Source: Alphaproteobacteria bacterium
Lineage (GTDB): Bacteria; Pseudomonadota; Alphaproteobacteria; Rs-D84
Assembly (NCBI GenBank): GCA_017616785.1
Contig: JAFZXK010000010.1
Location: forward strand, 1-51,868
Length of the DNA stretch: 51,868 bases
Direction of reading: 5' to 3'
The notes beneath the pieces were generated by a model that saw only the letters and a program-made list of their open reading frames with translations, did not search any database and was not told the DNA's origin. Positions 1-10,467 of the stretch are shown here, piece after piece (the stretch's first letter is position 1; each line of letters begins with the position of its first letter). Made by a program: the position numbers and the translations under genes.

Positions 1-1107
1 TCGGGACAGATTAATCTGGTTGTTCAATCTTTGTCTGACTTGGATATAGGCGATGATATAATCTGGTTTGCGGACGTGAATACGGATGATGCCGATTTAT
101 TTAATCTGTATTCTGTGTCTGGGTTGGATTACGAATTGGGAGTATATTTTGATGAAGATAATCATAAATACGGATTGCTGAGATTGGGAAATGTTCCGGT
201 GAAAGTTTTGTCTGACGATATGGCGCAACGGGCAAATCACATAGCCGAAACATTGGTTTATACCATCAAGAATCTAACTGGTTCTATGCAAAAACGTGTT
301 GATAACTTACAGTGGTTATCAACAACAGATACTGAAAATCAATCTGGTATAAACAATGCTTTTTGGATGCGCAATACTTACAAAGGGTTTGATGTAAATA
401 AAAGTTCTGTGGCATTGTCGGGTGTAGAATTTGGATATGATGGCATGGTATCGTCAACAGATAATTACAAATGGTATGTCGGCGGATTGGGCTATATTTC
501 TGGTGGTGACAGCAAATTCAAAGATACTAAATTTGATATAACTGGATACGGGTTGGGTGCTTATGTAATAATGCTTGAAAAATCTGGTTGGTTTGGTGAT
601 TTGGTATTTAGGCAACATTTTATTAATCTGGAAGAACCGGGTATAAAAACCGATTATACGGCAAGCAGTTTGAATATTGGCACAGGTAAAGAATTTGTGT
701 TTGGTGAAGATACAGACGAACTGAAATGGTTTGTAAAACCATCCGTCACAGGAACTTATATTGCTATATCAGGAACAGATATCGGTGCGTTCAAAGTCCA
801 AGATATTTCGTCAATTATGGCTTCTTTGTCAGTATCAGCCGGTCCAAGATGGGATTTTGCAAGCGGGCGAAAAATCCAAGCATACGGCAAAGTTGGATAT
901 ACTCTGGATAGTTCTGACGATGTGGACATTGTTGTAGATGGCATAGGCACAAAACAAGCGGTTGCGACAAATACCACAGAATTGGGTATAGGGTTTGATT
1001 ATCGTGGTGTTGATAACTCTGCGGATATATATTTGGAAACATCATATATCACTGGCACTGATTATTCCGAGATATCTGGCAATATCGGTATAAGATACAG
1101 TTTTTGA
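1..1107 (+). CDS. Autotransporter beta-domain protein, C-terminal part (5' end outside window)
   Basis: The reading frame is open from base 1, so the gene begins upstream of the window; a TTG at 31 is only an internal codon. The visible 368 residues look like the end of a classical (type Va) autotransporter: a pertactin-like junction (WMRNTYKGFDV) leads into alternating aromatic and polar strands expected of an outer-membrane beta barrel, and the protein ends in Phe (IRYSF), the usual Bam recognition end. The passenger, which would be displayed or released at the surface, is mostly missing. A second, shorter protein of the same kind lies at 3888-5105, with a cryptic mobile-type element between the two. 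The family call is by motif and strand pattern, not by search. Confidence 0.8.
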   Translation, partial: SGQINLVVQSLSDLDIGDDIIWFADVNTDDADLFNLYSVSGLDYELGVYFDEDNHKYGLLRLGNVPVKVLSDDMAQRANHIAETLVYTIKNLTGSMQKRVDNLQWLSTTDTENQSGINNAFWMRNTYKGFDVNKSSVALSGVEFGYDGMVSSTDNYKWYVGGLGYISGGDSKFKDTKFDITGYGLGAYVIMLEKSGWFGDLVFRQHFINLEEPGIKTDYTASSLNIGTGKEFVFGEDTDELKWFVKPSVTGTYIAISGTDIGAFKVQDISSIMASLSVSAGPRWDFASGRKIQAYGKVGYTLDSSDDVDIVVDGIGTKQAVATNTTELGIGFDYRGVDNSADIYLETSYITGTDYSEISGNIGIRYSF

Positions 1108-1212
1108 TAAAAAATGAGTGTTATTACTGAAATCCAGCGCATGTAATTCAAATTTGACTCAGGTTGTAAAAAAACAGGTCTGGGCTATGGTTATAGGGCG
1201 CAGTATAAAAAC

Positions 1213-1240
1213 ACGCTTCCAGACCCATTACAAGCGTTTT
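1213..1240 (+). terminator. Possible weak terminator after the first autotransporter
   Basis: ACGCTT (1213-1218) pairs with AAGCGT (1232-1237) around a 13-base loop and runs into TTTTA. The short stem and long loop make this a weak candidate. The rest of 1108-1258 shows no convincing gene. Confidence 0.3.
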
Positions 1241-1258
1241 ATAGTATATTGTCGCACA

Positions 1259-1441
1259 CTACCAATGCTTTATGCCATGAGAATCAACCGCTATAGGGTG
1301 GTTGAATGAATTATAAACAATGATATAGTTGCCAGAACGTCGTGCGTATTTCGCCTTTGGAAATTCTAAACTAAATTTGTTCGGTTTGCTGACGACTATG
1401 CTATCATCCGTATATCTGTATCTAAGTCCATTTGTTGCCAT
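1259..1441 (-). CDS. Hypothetical protein, 60 aa
   Basis: A small basic protein I do not recognise. The start is backed by a good Shine-Dalgarno (AAAGGA, 6-8 bases before the ATG) that matches the style of its neighbours. It contains a short beta-rich stretch (GNYIIVYNS) and no signal peptide or membrane segment. It lies directly downstream of the HUH endonuclease gene on the same strand (about 33 bases between them), so it is probably part of the same transcript and the same cryptic element. No function can be assigned. Confidence 0.55.
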   Translation of the reverse strand: MATNGLRYRYTDDSIVVSKPNKFSLEFPKAKYARRSGNYIIVYNSFNHPIAVDSHGIKHW

Positions 1442-1474
1442 GTAAAATCCTTTGTTTGCTATTAGAACTGATTT

Positions 1475-2107
1475 TTATTTGTGCCTATTGTGTTGTATCG
1501 TATATTTCCTAGACAGTATCTGTATCAGGTCTTCAAGGTTGCGCATTTTCCTTATTGGTTTGGGTAGTCCGGTGCGTTTGCGTTTATGTTTTGACGGTTT
1601 ATAGAATATGGTTGCAGGGGTATATATTCGGTCTGTGTGTAGTGTATAATCAAAATATAGTTCCTTGGTGCAGTATTTAATCAGGGTGGGTAGTTTATAA
1701 TATGGCACAAGTTGTATATCATAGTCTGCGCCCCTATTGCTTTTGTAGTGTCGTTTGAATAGATTATTAGCCCCATTGAAACACCATTCTACAAAACTTA
1801 ATACGGGTTGGGTATGGGTCTTTGGGTTGATAAAAGGTGCCAGGATATGAATGTGCCAACTGTCTGTATTCCACTTATTTTCACAAAAGGCATAGAACAT
1901 ATAGGGGTGTTTATTCCAGTTTTTATCATAGCCCAGTAATCTTTTTTCGAATTTAGCCAGTAGGTAGCGTATCGTTGTAATGAATTGGTGTATATCATGG
2001 GTTTTGAGAGAATATGGCAAGTTGATAGTGATAAAATAGAAAGGTGTATCGGCGGGAAATTGGTTATATAGGTAGTTTCGCATTGAGATTAAATCTTGTT
2101 GGGTCAT
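1475..2107 (-). CDS. HUH-superfamily replication/relaxase-type endonuclease (single catalytic Tyr)
   Basis: This 210-residue protein carries the three HUH Rep motifs in order. Motif I is FYFITINL (residues 23-30). Motif II is the metal-binding His-hydrophobic-His, HIH (85-87, in DSWHIHIL). Motif III is Tyr145 followed by Lys148 (YCTK), the YxxK arrangement of rolling-circle initiators. Such enzymes nick one DNA strand and become covalently attached to its 5' end, starting rolling-circle replication of plasmids or single-stranded phages, or DNA transfer. The size fits a minimal Rep. A clear AAAGGA site precedes the ATG. The neighbours are a SpoVG-like gene and small ORFs on the same strand, with iterons and inverted repeats at 2949-3154. 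It may be a plasmid Rep, an inovirus-type initiator or a mobilisation protein; I cannot tell which. Confidence 0.7.
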   Translation of the reverse strand: MTQQDLISMRNYLYNQFPADTPFYFITINLPYSLKTHDIHQFITTIRYLLAKFEKRLLGYDKNWNKHPYMFYAFCENKWNTDSWHIHILAPFINPKTHTQPVLSFVEWCFNGANNLFKRHYKSNRGADYDIQLVPYYKLPTLIKYCTKELYFDYTLHTDRIYTPATIFYKPSKHKRKRTGLPKPIRKMRNLEDLIQILSRKYTIQHNRHK

Positions 2108-2227
2108 TGTTTTTCCTTTGGGTTATAAGTGAAAATAGAAAAACAAGAATAGATTTAGAAAGGTAAAAAAATTGTTGGCTCTCATTACAAGAAACCAGTA
2201 TAAATTTGATGTTTTTTCTGCCGATTT

Positions 2228-2389
2228 CTAAGCCACACATAGATTCCATAAAGGGTGCCGGCTATTCGGTTTTGACATATCATATTGCACCGGAATTCCT
2301 TTTACGTTTGGTGGCAATAAGACGGTTGTGGTGGCTGGTTTTACATTGGTGTTCCCCTGTGGTTTTTCCTGATTAAATATTCGTGCCAT
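2228..2389 (-). CDS. Possible small protein, 53 aa
   Basis: An ATG-started frame of 53 codons (beginning MARIFNQEKP) lies between the SpoVG-like gene and the HUH gene on the same strand. Its middle is rich in Pro, Thr and Val. No convincing Shine-Dalgarno precedes it, and an overlapping frame also looks protein-like but lacks a start codon. It is listed because the 385-base gap between its neighbours would otherwise be empty. It may be noise. Confidence 0.3.
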   Translation of the reverse strand: MARIFNQEKPQGNTNVKPATTTVLLPPNVKGIPVQYDMSKPNSRHPLWNLCVA

Positions 2390-2473
2390 TTTCGCAATAA
2401 AAAGCCGGCAAGCGAAACGTGGCTTTGGTTTTCAGGATGTTTGATAAATTAGCACGTTGGCGGGGAATTATCT

Positions 2474-2512
2474 AAACAGAAACCCCAACCAACGGTCTGT
2501 ATTTGGATGGGG
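2474..2512 (-). terminator. Probable terminator of the SpoVG-like gene
   Basis: On the minus strand CCCCATCCAA pairs with TTGGTTGGGG (one mismatch, 10-base loop; stem arms at 2483-2492 and 2503-2512), followed by TTTCTGTTT. It lies downstream of the SpoVG-like stop codon. It could instead be an origin-associated hairpin of the HUH element. Confidence 0.45.
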
Positions 2513-2633
2513 CTTGCATTAGAAACTGACATCTTTTACAGACCAATTTTATAATGAATGTTTGCCTTGTTGTTTTTCTAATGCACAAACACTCATCATT
2601 TCAAAAAATAGAACTTGGACTTATATGTTTTTT

Positions 2634-2921
2634 CTACTTGGTTGTATTTTTATCGTCATTTAATCGATATGGATGCGCTTTATTTTTGATTATCTCTTTG
2701 TCAATTTGATTCAATACGGTTTTTACTATCTGTTCCCTGATTTTTGGACTATCAACAGTAAAATTGGCAGGGAAAGCGATTGAATACTGATGGCGGGCGG
2801 AACTGTAATAAACCCTGAACCCGTCTAAATGTAGCATCTTATCAAAACAGACACTATATGTTCCAACCAATGTTTCAGTTTGCATATCAAGTTTTTTTAT
2901 GGTGATTTCATTTAGATTCAT
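2634..2921 (-). CDS. SpoVG-like protein, 95 aa
   Basis: The layout resembles SpoVG: a first beta hairpin (ITIKKLDMQTETLVGTYSV), then a segment like the SpoVG consensus for the second hairpin (a hydrophobic FRVYYSSARHQYSIAFP ending at the Phe-Pro where SpoVG has its xMP), and a C-terminal helix. SpoVG proteins are small site-specific nucleic-acid-binding proteins of about 85-100 residues and also occur on phages and plasmids. Shine-Dalgarno AAAGGT precedes the ATG. It is the first gene of the minus-strand cluster that includes the HUH endonuclease, so a role in replication or regulation of that element is plausible. The family assignment rests on pattern similarity only. Confidence 0.45.
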   Translation of the reverse strand: MNLNEITIKKLDMQTETLVGTYSVCFDKMLHLDGFRVYYSSARHQYSIAFPANFTVDSPKIREQIVKTVLNQIDKEIIKNKAHPYRLNDDKNTTK

Positions 2922-2948
2922 TTTTGACCTTTTATAGATGTTAGAACT

Positions 2949-3086
2949 TTATTTAATCGCCCAAAACATCCCATATAGAATACGCAGGTAAAAAGACACC
3001 CCCCCTTGCGCCCATAGCATACATAAAGGGCGATTTTGGGCGAGTATCTACTAAAAAGGTGGCACTTACTAAGGGCGATTAAATAA
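2949..3086. repeat. Inverted repeat with extra GGGCGATT copies, possible origin region
   Basis: TTATTTAATCGCCC (2949-2962) is exactly inverted at 3073-3086, enclosing about 110 bases. A further AAGGGCGATT copy occurs at 3027-3036 and matches 3071-3080. The stretch has no gene and lies upstream of the minus-strand HUH/SpoVG cluster, where a replication origin or shared regulatory region of such an element would be expected. Confidence 0.55.
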
Positions 3087-3132
3087 CTTTACTTTTTTGT
3101 CTGGTGTGGTATAATAGGGGCAAGTGCTAAGG

Positions 3133-3154
3133 GTGATACGAACAGTGATACGAA
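3133..3154 (+). repeat. Two tandem 12-bp iteron-like repeats
   Basis: GTGATACGAA occurs at 3133-3142 and again at 3145-3154, a 12-base period of about one helical turn. Only two copies are visible. With a Rep-like gene close by, this may be a protein-binding site of a replication origin. Confidence 0.45.
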
Positions 3155-3340
3155 TTGGCGCTCAAAGATAAAAAGCGGAACACGAACAAGCCCAGAAAAC
3201 CGGCTTTTTAGCGATTAGTGGTTTTGTTCCTGTACGCTCCGCCATCCGTCTTTGCCGAAGGCAAAGCCGCGCTTGGGTGCCGCGCCGTAACCTTGGCGCT
3301 TGTGCCACAAAGCTTTAGCGAAGTGGCGAAGGCGGGCTTT
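3155..3340. other. Gene-free, GC-rich stretch with a perfect hairpin
   Basis: I see no gene here. CTTTGCC-gaa-GGCAAAG (3250-3266) is a perfect 7-bp stem with a three-base loop. The stretch 3225-3330 is much richer in G and C than the flanking genes and may be a degenerate repeat or an element border. Confidence 0.4.
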
Positions 3341-3583
3341 TTACAACAACCCTTCTAAAAATCTTAAAATTTCACGATTATTAAAATCCAATGCACGCAA
3401 GATTCGTATCAAATCCATAATATCCAAACGGCGTTCGCATGTTTCCGCGCGCCCGACAAAACAATGCGCGACATTCAGTTTTTTTGCCAAATCACGTTGG
3501 GTCAACCCCTGTTGCACGCGCAAAGATTTTAACGAATTTATCATTGCGCGGTATTTCGGGTCAAAAATTGTTTTCTTGGTCAT
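3341..3583 (-). CDS. XRE-family helix-turn-helix regulator, 80 aa
   Basis: A single-domain Cro/CI-type DNA-binding protein. Residues 17-70 form the five-helix fold, with the recognisable LRVQQGLTQRDLAKKLNV helix-turn-helix and a charged C-terminal helix. No Shine-Dalgarno is visible before the ATG, which overlaps one of two TGATATCA palindromes (3583-3590 and 3594-3601), as expected for autoregulation at the start site. It is divergent from a promoter at 3610-3638 that drives the 68-aa ORF and the second autotransporter, so control of that surface protein is the natural inference. It could also be the regulator of the neighbouring HUH element. Confidence 0.8.
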   Translation of the reverse strand: MTKKTIFDPKYRAMINSLKSLRVQQGLTQRDLAKKLNVAHCFVGRAETCERRLDIMDLIRILRALDFNNREILRFLEGLL

Positions 3584-3668: not shown

Positions 3669-3875
3669 ATGCAAGAAAAATTAAAAACGGAAATATCGCC
3701 CGACATAATAGATTTTGCATATCACATTATAGATTGGTTATATTTTTGCCCCAGAAGCCACTATAACGAAATACCCTTTTTCAAAAGCGACTTATTGAAA
3801 GTTATGAACGGGTTAAGGCAGAAAAAAGTTGCTGTCAAAATTCATAAAGACATCGAACAACGCGAACATATGTGA
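3669..3875 (+). CDS. Hypothetical protein, 68 aa
   Basis: A small basic protein I do not recognise, with an aromatic-rich middle (IIDWLYFCPRSHY) and no signal peptide. The start is supported by an AAAGGAG Shine-Dalgarno. Only 12 bases separate it from the following autotransporter gene, so the two are probably one transcript driven from 3610-3638. A regulatory or accessory role for the surface protein is possible, but nothing in the sequence shows it. Confidence 0.6.
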   Translation: MQEKLKTEISPDIIDFAYHIIDWLYFCPRSHYNEIPFFKSDLLKVMNGLRQKKVAVKIHKDIEQREHM

Positions 3876-7293: not shown

Positions 7294-8040
7294 ATGAAAG
7301 AAATTATAAACGATTTTGATTATGATAACAATATACCGCTTATCGGCGAAGCCGCGCCTGAATTCGGTGCAATTACAACGAACGGCTATATCCATTTTCC
7401 ACACGATTACCGCGGGCATTGGGTTGTGTTCTTTTCGCATCCGGGCGATTTTACGCCGGTTTGCACAACTGAATTTATGACCTTTCAATCAATGATAGAC
7501 GAATTTCGCGCGTTAAATACCGAACTGGTCGGGTTATCTGTTGATTCAAACGCGTCGCATATCGCATGGATTCAAACAATTCGCAATGATATAACTTTCC
7601 AAGGATGGAAAAACATGGAAATAACTTTTCCAGTTGTTGCGGATGTATCTGGCGAAATTGCGCGCAGGTACGGAATGTTACAACCAAGTGCCGGCGACAC
7701 GGACACTGTGCGCGCAGTTTTCATAATTGACCCGCGCGGTGTTATTCGCACAATTCTTTACTATCCAAAATCGGTCGGGCGCAACATTACGGAAATAAAG
7801 CGCATTGTTATCGCACTGCAAACATCAGACGCGTTCCATGTTGCAACGCCCGCCGAATGGATTCCGGGCGATGACGTTATTGTTCCCGCGCCGGGCAAGG
7901 TTTCTGATATTCGCCGGGGTGCGGAACGCGATTGGTTTTTGAAATTCAAATCGATAAGTCCCGAAATGATTCTAAATAAAATCACAAACAGAAAATTTAT
8001 CAACGATGACAAGAAACACATGAAACATAAAAAGAAATAA
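7294..8040 (+). CDS. Peroxiredoxin, Prx6-like, single cysteine
   Basis: A 248-residue thiol peroxidase that reduces hydrogen and organic peroxides in the cytoplasm. The peroxidatic Cys57 sits in HPGDFTPVCTTE. The long C-terminal domain with ATPAEWIPGDDVIVPAP is characteristic of the Prx6 / archaeal-type group. Cys57 is the only cysteine in the protein, so there is no resolving cysteine and the enzyme must work by a 1-Cys mechanism with an outside reductant. The C-terminus ends in a Lys/His-rich tail. An AAAGGGGG Shine-Dalgarno supports the ATG. A hairpin terminator follows at 8067-8090. It stands alone, divergent from the IHF/HU operon. Confidence 0.9.
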   Translation: MKEIINDFDYDNNIPLIGEAAPEFGAITTNGYIHFPHDYRGHWVVFFSHPGDFTPVCTTEFMTFQSMIDEFRALNTELVGLSVDSNASHIAWIQTIRNDITFQGWKNMEITFPVVADVSGEIARRYGMLQPSAGDTDTVRAVFIIDPRGVIRTILYYPKSVGRNITEIKRIVIALQTSDAFHVATPAEWIPGDDVIVPAPGKVSDIRRGAERDWFLKFKSISPEMILNKITNRKFINDDKKHMKHKKK

Positions 8041-10376: not shown

Positions 10377-10467
10377 GGAGATATGGCAGAGCTGGTTGAA
10401 TGCGCACGACTCGAAATCGTGTATACAGGAAACTGTATCGAGGGTTCGAATCCCCCTATCTCCGCCA
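10377..10467 (+). tRNA. tRNA-Ser(CGA)
   Basis: The acceptor stem GGAGATA pairs with TATCTCC (10457-10463), followed by G and an encoded CCA (10465-10467). The anticodon stem CACGA/TCGTG holds the loop CTCGAAA, giving anticodon CGA at 10412-10414, which reads UCG. A long variable arm (GTATACAGGAAACTGTATC region) marks a class II tRNA, as expected for serine. The T arm GGGTTCGAATCCC is canonical. Confidence 0.95.

Follow-up and report, generated by a model that had tools for sequence, protein, structure and literature searches.

Positions 1-3244 of the window, a stretch of 51,868 nucleotides that makes up the entire contig C23 of genome G000 (1.06 Mb in 25 contigs), hold the right part of an integrative element that is cut by the contig start. 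In our judgement this region probably represents the right half of a small hitcher-type element, one that would excise, replicate by means of its own Rep protein under the control of a structured leader, and be transferred by a helper. At the level of sequence, comparison with related genomes establishes the element, its ends, target, integrase, empty sites, transfer between species and conserved backbone. A sequence-only reading had described an integrated small rolling-circle plasmid, satellite or phage at 1259-3154. The mobile character it assigned is borne out, as is the pairing of an HUH Rep with a SpoVG-like protein encoded on the same strand. The borders differ: the backbone spans about 1150 to 3244, and on the left the element extends beyond the contig start. 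The isolated cryptic plasmid gives way to a member of a family of tRNA-integrated elements from uncultured gut bacteria. Small tRNA-integrated elements with an integrase and a Rep are a known kind; new are the Rep family, its partner and a covarying pseudoknot. The large family to which the element belongs, which moves swappable cargo between species, is apparently undescribed, and literature searches that reached a minority of subscription journals returned no paper describing the element.

The ends of the element are marked by a tRNA gene. The last 17 bases of a tRNA-Ser(gct) gene, TCCTGTACGCTCCGCCA, recur exactly at 3228-3244 of the window (attR), matching 7387-7403 of locus L085 on contig C18 of the same genome, where the gene occupies 7315-7403. 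Directly after this tRNA, 110 bp from the last base of C18, lies a 575-aa Phage_integrase protein (PF00589, E 6.9e-9); we read the end of C18 as the left end of the element, which would supply the tyrosine integrase that had been reported as absent. At base 5 of the repeat, tRNA and attR both carry G in G000 and both carry A in G129 and G131, so that each attR fits the tRNA of its own genome. We infer that C18 and the window join across a middle section that was not assembled. Because G113 carries the upstream gene of C18 before its own tRNA-Ser, we take the end of C18 and the start of the window to be two sides of one insertion. Contig C3 of G131 ends 70 bp past its tRNA-Ser, and those 70 bases are identical to those on C18.

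The conserved backbone in the window (about 1150 to 3244) is 96.7% identical to its counterpart in G131, 96.8-98.3% to that in G129 and 75.5% to that in G076. It comprises a 60-aa ORF, the HUH rep gene, a folded region, the spoVG-like gene and an inverted repeat with iterons, and exchangeable cargo lies between it and the integrase. The 60-aa ORF (1259-1441, minus strand), present as first described, is kept in G076 and L090 with a dN/dS of 0.12-0.24, and rep, spoVG, the 60-aa ORF and int are all under purifying selection (dN/dS 0.08-0.33 where dS was estimable). Left of the backbone limit, G129 and G076 carry other genes than G000: small ORFs in G129 and a 378-aa protein in G076, against an autotransporter-like protein in G000, of which the contig start leaves the C-terminal part (1-1107, plus strand). 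This fragment matched no Pfam family, and a stretch 79.6% identical to it adjoins another rep-like gene in G169 (L078). The element had been placed between two autotransporter genes; the left one is most likely cargo within the element rather than a flanking gene, and only the right one lies outside.

A search with the C18 tRNA-Ser and its upstream flank yielded six element-free loci. In G113, G122 and G130 the tRNA-Ser joins directly to the sequence that follows attR in G131, and accDA lies within 1 kb after the tRNA in five of the six loci, the remaining one, G122, being cut short by a contig end. The upstream gene in G113 is the one found before tRNA-Ser on C18. These empty sites in relatives, a comparison that the sequence-only reading had proposed, rule out a conserved chromosomal locus. 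One genome does not fit this simple picture: G129 has accDA on the tRNA side of the element and not on the attR side, and we therefore conclude that its chromosome is rearranged there.

Sequence identities further show that the element has moved recently. Between G000 and G129 the integrase end is 98.4% identical over 1,931 bp and the backbone 96.8 and 98.3%, whereas accDA is 71.8% identical and the larger chromosomal matches 65-80%. Between G000 and G131 the element is 96.7% identical, accDA 87% and larger matches 79-86%. The chromosomal ranges cover matches of at least 250 bp; some shorter ones exceed 90%, and some lie over the window's tRNA-Ser at 10377-10467. An element 97-98% identical between species whose chromosomes are only 65-80% identical marks a recent horizontal transfer.

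The predicted replication initiator of the element is a single-domain HUH protein of 210 aa (1475-2107, minus strand; dN/dS 0.15-0.33). All three motifs ascribed to it are present and conserved (motif I FITINLP, the HUH motif WHIHI, and YCTKE): H85, Y145, K148 and E149 are invariant in nine of nine diverse homologues, although the second histidine of HxH is kept in only eight. An AlphaFold2 model (pLDDT 62, pTM 0.56) has the order beta-alpha-beta-beta-alpha-beta-alpha of HUH enzymes. Its best match among solved structures is SIRV1 ORF119 (2x3g; Z 10.2 over 112 residues, 2.4 A, 20% identity in the structural alignment), the HUH Rep of that virus. IS200-type transposases (Z about 8) and AAV Rep (7.6) follow, and with a model of this pLDDT an unrelated designed protein scores 9.2; Foldseek of the model against the PDB gave no match under E 0.001. 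The family search suggested for this protein found no Pfam family and no known relaxase family. Its PHROG match was at chance level, and its best PDB match by sequence, the replication-associated protein 6q1m (E 0.57), is a hint at most. Neither Rep nor the SpoVG-like protein had a relative in the viral contigs searched or, by tblastn, in the phage and plasmid records. Relatives of Rep do occur on contig C25 of G000 (61% identical) and in G016 (42%), and profile searches place them in 49 of the 156 genomes of the genus, in 60 of the 201 genomes of this gut order of small genomes, and in 3 of 385 sampled genomes of the class, G000 among them. Judged by sequence, the protein belongs to an unnamed Rep family.

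Upstream of rep lies a gene for a 95-aa protein (2634-2921, minus strand) that we call SpoVG-like because its match to PF04026 (19.3 bits, E 0.0013) falls below the curated cut-off of 29.6 bits. The two best PDB matches of a predicted model (pLDDT 66) are 2ia9, SpoVG of B. subtilis (TM 0.68/0.71), and 2i9z (TM 0.60-0.71 across the two, Foldseek E 0.3); a sequence search of the PDB returned nothing. A SpoVG profile matched six of the 156 genus genomes: five with the rep pairing and a sixth, G107, with a weak match. The pairing amounts to six loci in five genomes (two in G000, one each in G016, G076, G129 and G131); in G129 the two genes sit on two contig ends, the break falling inside the element. 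Across the order, PF04026 itself was found in six of 201 genomes at E 0.001, four of them above the cut-off and the window's gene not among them. In two genomes (G202:C5 and G035:C4) SpoVG adjoins a phrog_702 protein, a replication protein unrelated to the Rep of the element (E 7e-4 and 6e-6), which gives independent support for a role of the SpoVG fold beside replication genes. The pairing of Rep and SpoVG, singled out at the start as unusual, is therefore rare in these genomes, yet recurrent.

Between spoVG and rep the DNA is conserved and no ORF was seen to be conserved along it; instead, this stretch appears to encode a structured nucleic acid (2403-2599, minus strand). We distinguish two hairpins with complementary loops, forming a kissing pseudoknot, and a third hairpin (2455-2599), followed by a conserved tail (2403-2454). 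RNAalifold and pair counts revealed compensatory changes, with four doubly changed pairs, a number reached in 2 of 500 shuffles, and pairing falls from 84% to at most 53% when the partners are slid. Counted by hand over the six divergent versions that make up the comparison, hairpin D retains 12-14 of its 14 pairs, hairpin A has all 8 of its pairs in five versions and 7 of them in G016, and hairpin B is complete in five and broken in G130; since the arms were picked by the analyst, these counts lean towards structure. The loops of D and A are fully complementary over 10 bases in each of the six versions; in G016 three compensatory changes turn GCATTAGAAA/TTTCTAATGC into ACATTAGTGA/TCACTAATGT while preserving 10 of 10 pairs. 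Helix A likewise varies from GGTCTGTA/TACAGACC to GTTCATGA/TCATGAAC and GCTCACAA/TTGTGAGC. The case for structure rests on this covariation, as the 526-nt leader, folded as RNA, is only slightly more stable than its shuffles (z -1.68; other strand 0.31).

A covariance model of the region, R1, found it in 8 of the 156 genomes and beside rep in seven loci: all six SpoVG loci and one in G130 (E 1e-10), where it precedes a divergent rep of 301 aa and SpoVG is missing, indicating that the folded region tracks Rep and not SpoVG. Weak matches in G020 and G021, at chromosomal loci without rep or integrase, were judged false, and those in L069 (E 0.032) and L068 (E 0.3) were set aside as misplaced relative to rep. 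Rfam gave nothing at the gathering score and one chance-level match far below it. An AGTTCTA box stands upstream of the folded region, of spoVG and of the 60-aa ORF; over 16 element stretches it shows no enrichment (22 found, 19.8 expected). The box is absent from the remaining 48.6 kb of the window.

On the far side of spoVG, a 14-bp inverted repeat (arms 2949-2962 and 3073-3086) surrounds iterons of the form AGTAnnTACTA and is a candidate origin or operator. The repeat is exact, as originally noted, with 29 of 1000 shuffles of the same stretch reaching 14 bp, and its arms stay complementary in G076 despite changed bases. The tandem iterons reported with it are weak in the window itself, where TRF detected no tandem repeat and the two copies of TACTA (3049 and 3067) are within chance (202 of 1000 shuffles). 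Orthologous stretches hold three, five and eight copies (28, 13 and 0 of 1000 shuffles), and because they exceed shuffles in this way we regard the array as real in the family and reduced in the window. Further right lie two direct copies of GTGATACGAA (3133-3142 and 3145-3154, together 3133-3154), one of which is deleted in G131.

Rep genes elsewhere in these genomes commonly sit in elements of the same build. At C25 of G000 (L014), G016 (L015) and G129 (L066), the far end of the element carries a tyrosine integrase of 564-583 aa that immediately follows a tRNA; at G076 (L067) the start of the contig truncates this integrase. Repeats of the tRNA 3' end delimit, for example, a 5,250 bp element at tRNA-Leu (16 nt) and one of 7,825 bp at tRNA-Val (20 nt). 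Among 26 rep loci taken with larger context, the window not counted, 17 have an integrase. The other nine include five cut by a contig end (L016, L063, L068, L078, L080) and four uncut loci with no such integrase nearby (L021, L064, L069, L071), so a Rep of this family need not always sit in such an element. A tRNA lies just upstream of the integrase in 11 of the 17, and in nine of these 11 its 3' end is repeated at the same locus. The nine complete relatives span 4.5-10.7 kb and occupy genes for tRNA-Leu, Val, Lys, Pro, Gly (two), Thr, Tyr and Gln. The longest match to the tRNA 3' end is 16-24 nt within these loci, whereas between different loci it averages 9.8 nt (n=72), with exceptions of 19 and 22 nt that stem from shared tRNAs.

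The gene content of these relatives varies around int and rep. L018 and L019 have a DUF927 protein in place of spoVG, and in L073 int and rep are separated by a gene for a DUF5906 protein. Selected genes of the sister elements were scanned for cargo: L015 encodes an EcoRI-type methylase and a GmrSD/HNH nuclease (PADLOC call type II), L020 has UzuA and PDC-S57 matches, and L073 and L079 encode DNA methylases. Neither the window ORFs nor the selected genes of relatives included recognisable packaging or capsid genes, and the scanned proteins showed no coupling protein or mobilization gene. In L014, a complete sister of 5.25 kb, the ORFs of at least 60 aa are int, rep, spoVG and two more, a size limit at which small coat genes, such as a filamentous or microvirus prophage would have, could escape notice.

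Based on these features, we propose that excision by the integrase releases the element as a circle and leaves the tRNA restored. By way of its HUH histidines and Y145, Rep would then nick one of the strands, at an origin located either in the folded region or in the inverted-repeat and iteron stretch, and so drive rolling-circle replication together with enzymes of the host. The folded region immediately precedes rep and shares its strand; it may serve as the leader of the rep mRNA or as a single-stranded origin and set the level of Rep, and the SpoVG-like protein, with its nucleic-acid-binding fold, may bind the folded RNA or ssDNA. Transfer between cells would be accomplished by a helper, which could be a conjugative element, a phage or transformation; as neither a transfer apparatus nor a capsid gene was recognised, we file the element as a hitcher with an outside helper.

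The element resembles several known systems in part. With IMEs and other hitchers (a term from PMC11389934) it shares an integrase, a tRNA attachment site, a nickase (here predicted), cargo, a scattered distribution and the lack of a recognised transfer apparatus; it differs in its unnamed HUH family, SpoVG partner and folded region upstream of rep, and any oriT or relaxase function of its own would be conjectural. Like tycheposons, described as 4-200 kb in PMC10872708, it is bordered by a tRNA and has a tyrosine recombinase and variable cargo, but here an HUH Rep backbone recurs, and the likeness is one of description. HUH Reps such as 2x3g share the predicted fold and the order of HUH and Y, whereas identity in the structural alignment is 20% and the Rep of the element has no Pfam family or convincing PHROG. 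In I-complex plasmids an antisense RNA controls rep by kissing with stem-loop I of the rep leader, according to PMC10724649; both leaders precede rep and have a kissing pairing, but sequence, fold and Rep type differ, and in the element the control of Rep by its leader would be an extrapolation. SpoVG of Firmicutes shares the predicted fold; the Listeria protein is described as binding RNA, and ssDNA weakly (PMC4959528), whereas the protein studied here falls below the Pfam cut-off, is element-borne and adjoins rep. These last two parallels and that with ICEBs1, below, are analogies, and none is evidence for the element.

Four other readings of the locus, or of part of it, have to be weighed against the hitcher. 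The HUH protein might be a relaxase acting at an oriT, with plasmid-like replication secondary, which would make this an integrative mobilizable element comparable to ICEs whose relaxases have a rolling-circle role. Int, an HUH nickase and a tRNA site are all compatible with this; ICEBs1, inserted in a leucyl-tRNA gene, couples its integrative life with rolling-circle replication from oriT by its relaxase (PMC9956884), and IMEs can have a relaxase without a mating apparatus (PMC11389934). We nonetheless consider it unlikely, given that Rep falls in no known Pfam relaxase family and that the scanned proteins included no coupling or mobilization gene. Rather improbable, in our estimate, is a phage satellite that a helper phage induces to excise and to replicate by Rep and then packages. 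The element shares with PICIs and other satellites its small size, integrative habit, integrase, replication gene and accessory genes, and the 4.5-10.7 kb of the nine complete relatives, the integrase at a tRNA, the restriction or candidate defence cargo and the DUF927 and DUF5906 proteins of sister elements would all suit such a life. PICIs are, however, defined by phage-dependent induction and packaging (PMC6092414), and no packaging, capsid or phage-interference module was recognised here.

A decayed, immobile remnant of a cryptic plasmid or prophage, its genes mere passengers, would account for the broken contig, the integrase found elsewhere and the reduced iterons of the window. Intact frames under purifying selection, 97-98% identity between species and precise att sites make it very improbable, and on selection and identity we reject it. 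For the folded region by itself, a double- or single-strand origin whose ssDNA hairpins are bound by Rep is a serious possibility, to which we give somewhat less than even credence. HUH proteins often bind hairpins, the region travels with Rep in seven loci and without SpoVG in G130, and the CTAATG loop is unchanged in seven aligned rows. The 10-bp loop-loop pairing and the AGTTCTA box suggest transcription instead, although the box is not enriched over all elements.

What was an orphan HUH gene is thus placed in a mobile element whose exact ends, target and hosts are defined, and its Rep family is present in 60 of the 201 genomes of the order and had no match in the plasmid and phage collections searched. 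The element also offers a testable instance of replication genes accompanied by a SpoVG-like protein, as well as a covarying pseudoknot outside Rfam at the gathering score. We would go further only tentatively and propose a new family of small elements, whose replication may be governed by a hitherto undescribed pseudoknotted RNA (or ssDNA) recognised by their own Rep and SpoVG. The HUH-Rep, SpoVG and structured-leader module would be swappable with Rep and DUF927 or Rep and DUF5906, and the elements would carry defence genes and other cargo from one streamlined gut alphaproteobacterium to another. Small elements like these may be the means by which genes for restriction and other defences move among such bacteria. 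The closest loci lie on named contigs from red deer, goat and sheep gut assemblies, with one more from an assembly of unstated host, and the window probably derives from a gut host of this sort.

The pairing of a SpoVG gene with a replication gene is not confined to the element in the window. It is seen again with a Rep unrelated to the window's Rep in two loci, L149 (contig C5 of genome G202, approximately 1503-2893) and L151 (contig C4 of genome G035, 362-1728), where the SpoVG gene adjoins one for a phrog_702 replication protein.

Within the window's element, the box AGTTCTA occurs on the minus strand upstream of the 60-aa ORF (1463-1469), of the folded region (2609-2615) and of the spoVG-like gene (2942-2948), with no copies in the remaining 48.6 kb of the window. 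Across all elements taken together, the box was not enriched. Four sister elements (L018, L019, L020 and L078) carry a different conserved noncoding stretch of approximately 440-580 nt upstream of rep, which looks structured; the word AACGACATTAT is common to these stretches.

Outside attR, the window encodes an HTH gene (3341-3583, minus strand) and, divergent from it, a 68-aa ORF (3669-3875, plus strand). A homologue of the HTH gene lies upstream of tRNA-Ser in genome G133 (L132, 355-609). In L063 (1979-1995), and likewise after tRNA-Ser in L128, L130 and L133, the att core is present a second time, approximately 171 bp beyond the tRNA end or attR. This second copy terminates a sequence that, judged by eye, resembles a degenerate tRNA, and it may be the scar of an older insertion.

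Assemblies break within these elements in three genomes (G000 between contigs C18 and C23, G131 between C3 and C5, and G129 between C10 and C17), perhaps because co-resident species carry near-identical copies. An 8,174-bp contig (L091) consists of a G016-type element with short flanks, is 100% identical to the G016 locus L015, and ends just outside the att sites. Sister-element cargo in L015 (9275-11436) and L020 (2703-4917) has matches to restriction-modification and candidate defence families. Genome G000 also has a third rep of the family, at 40186-40659 of contig C15 (L068), close to a contig end.
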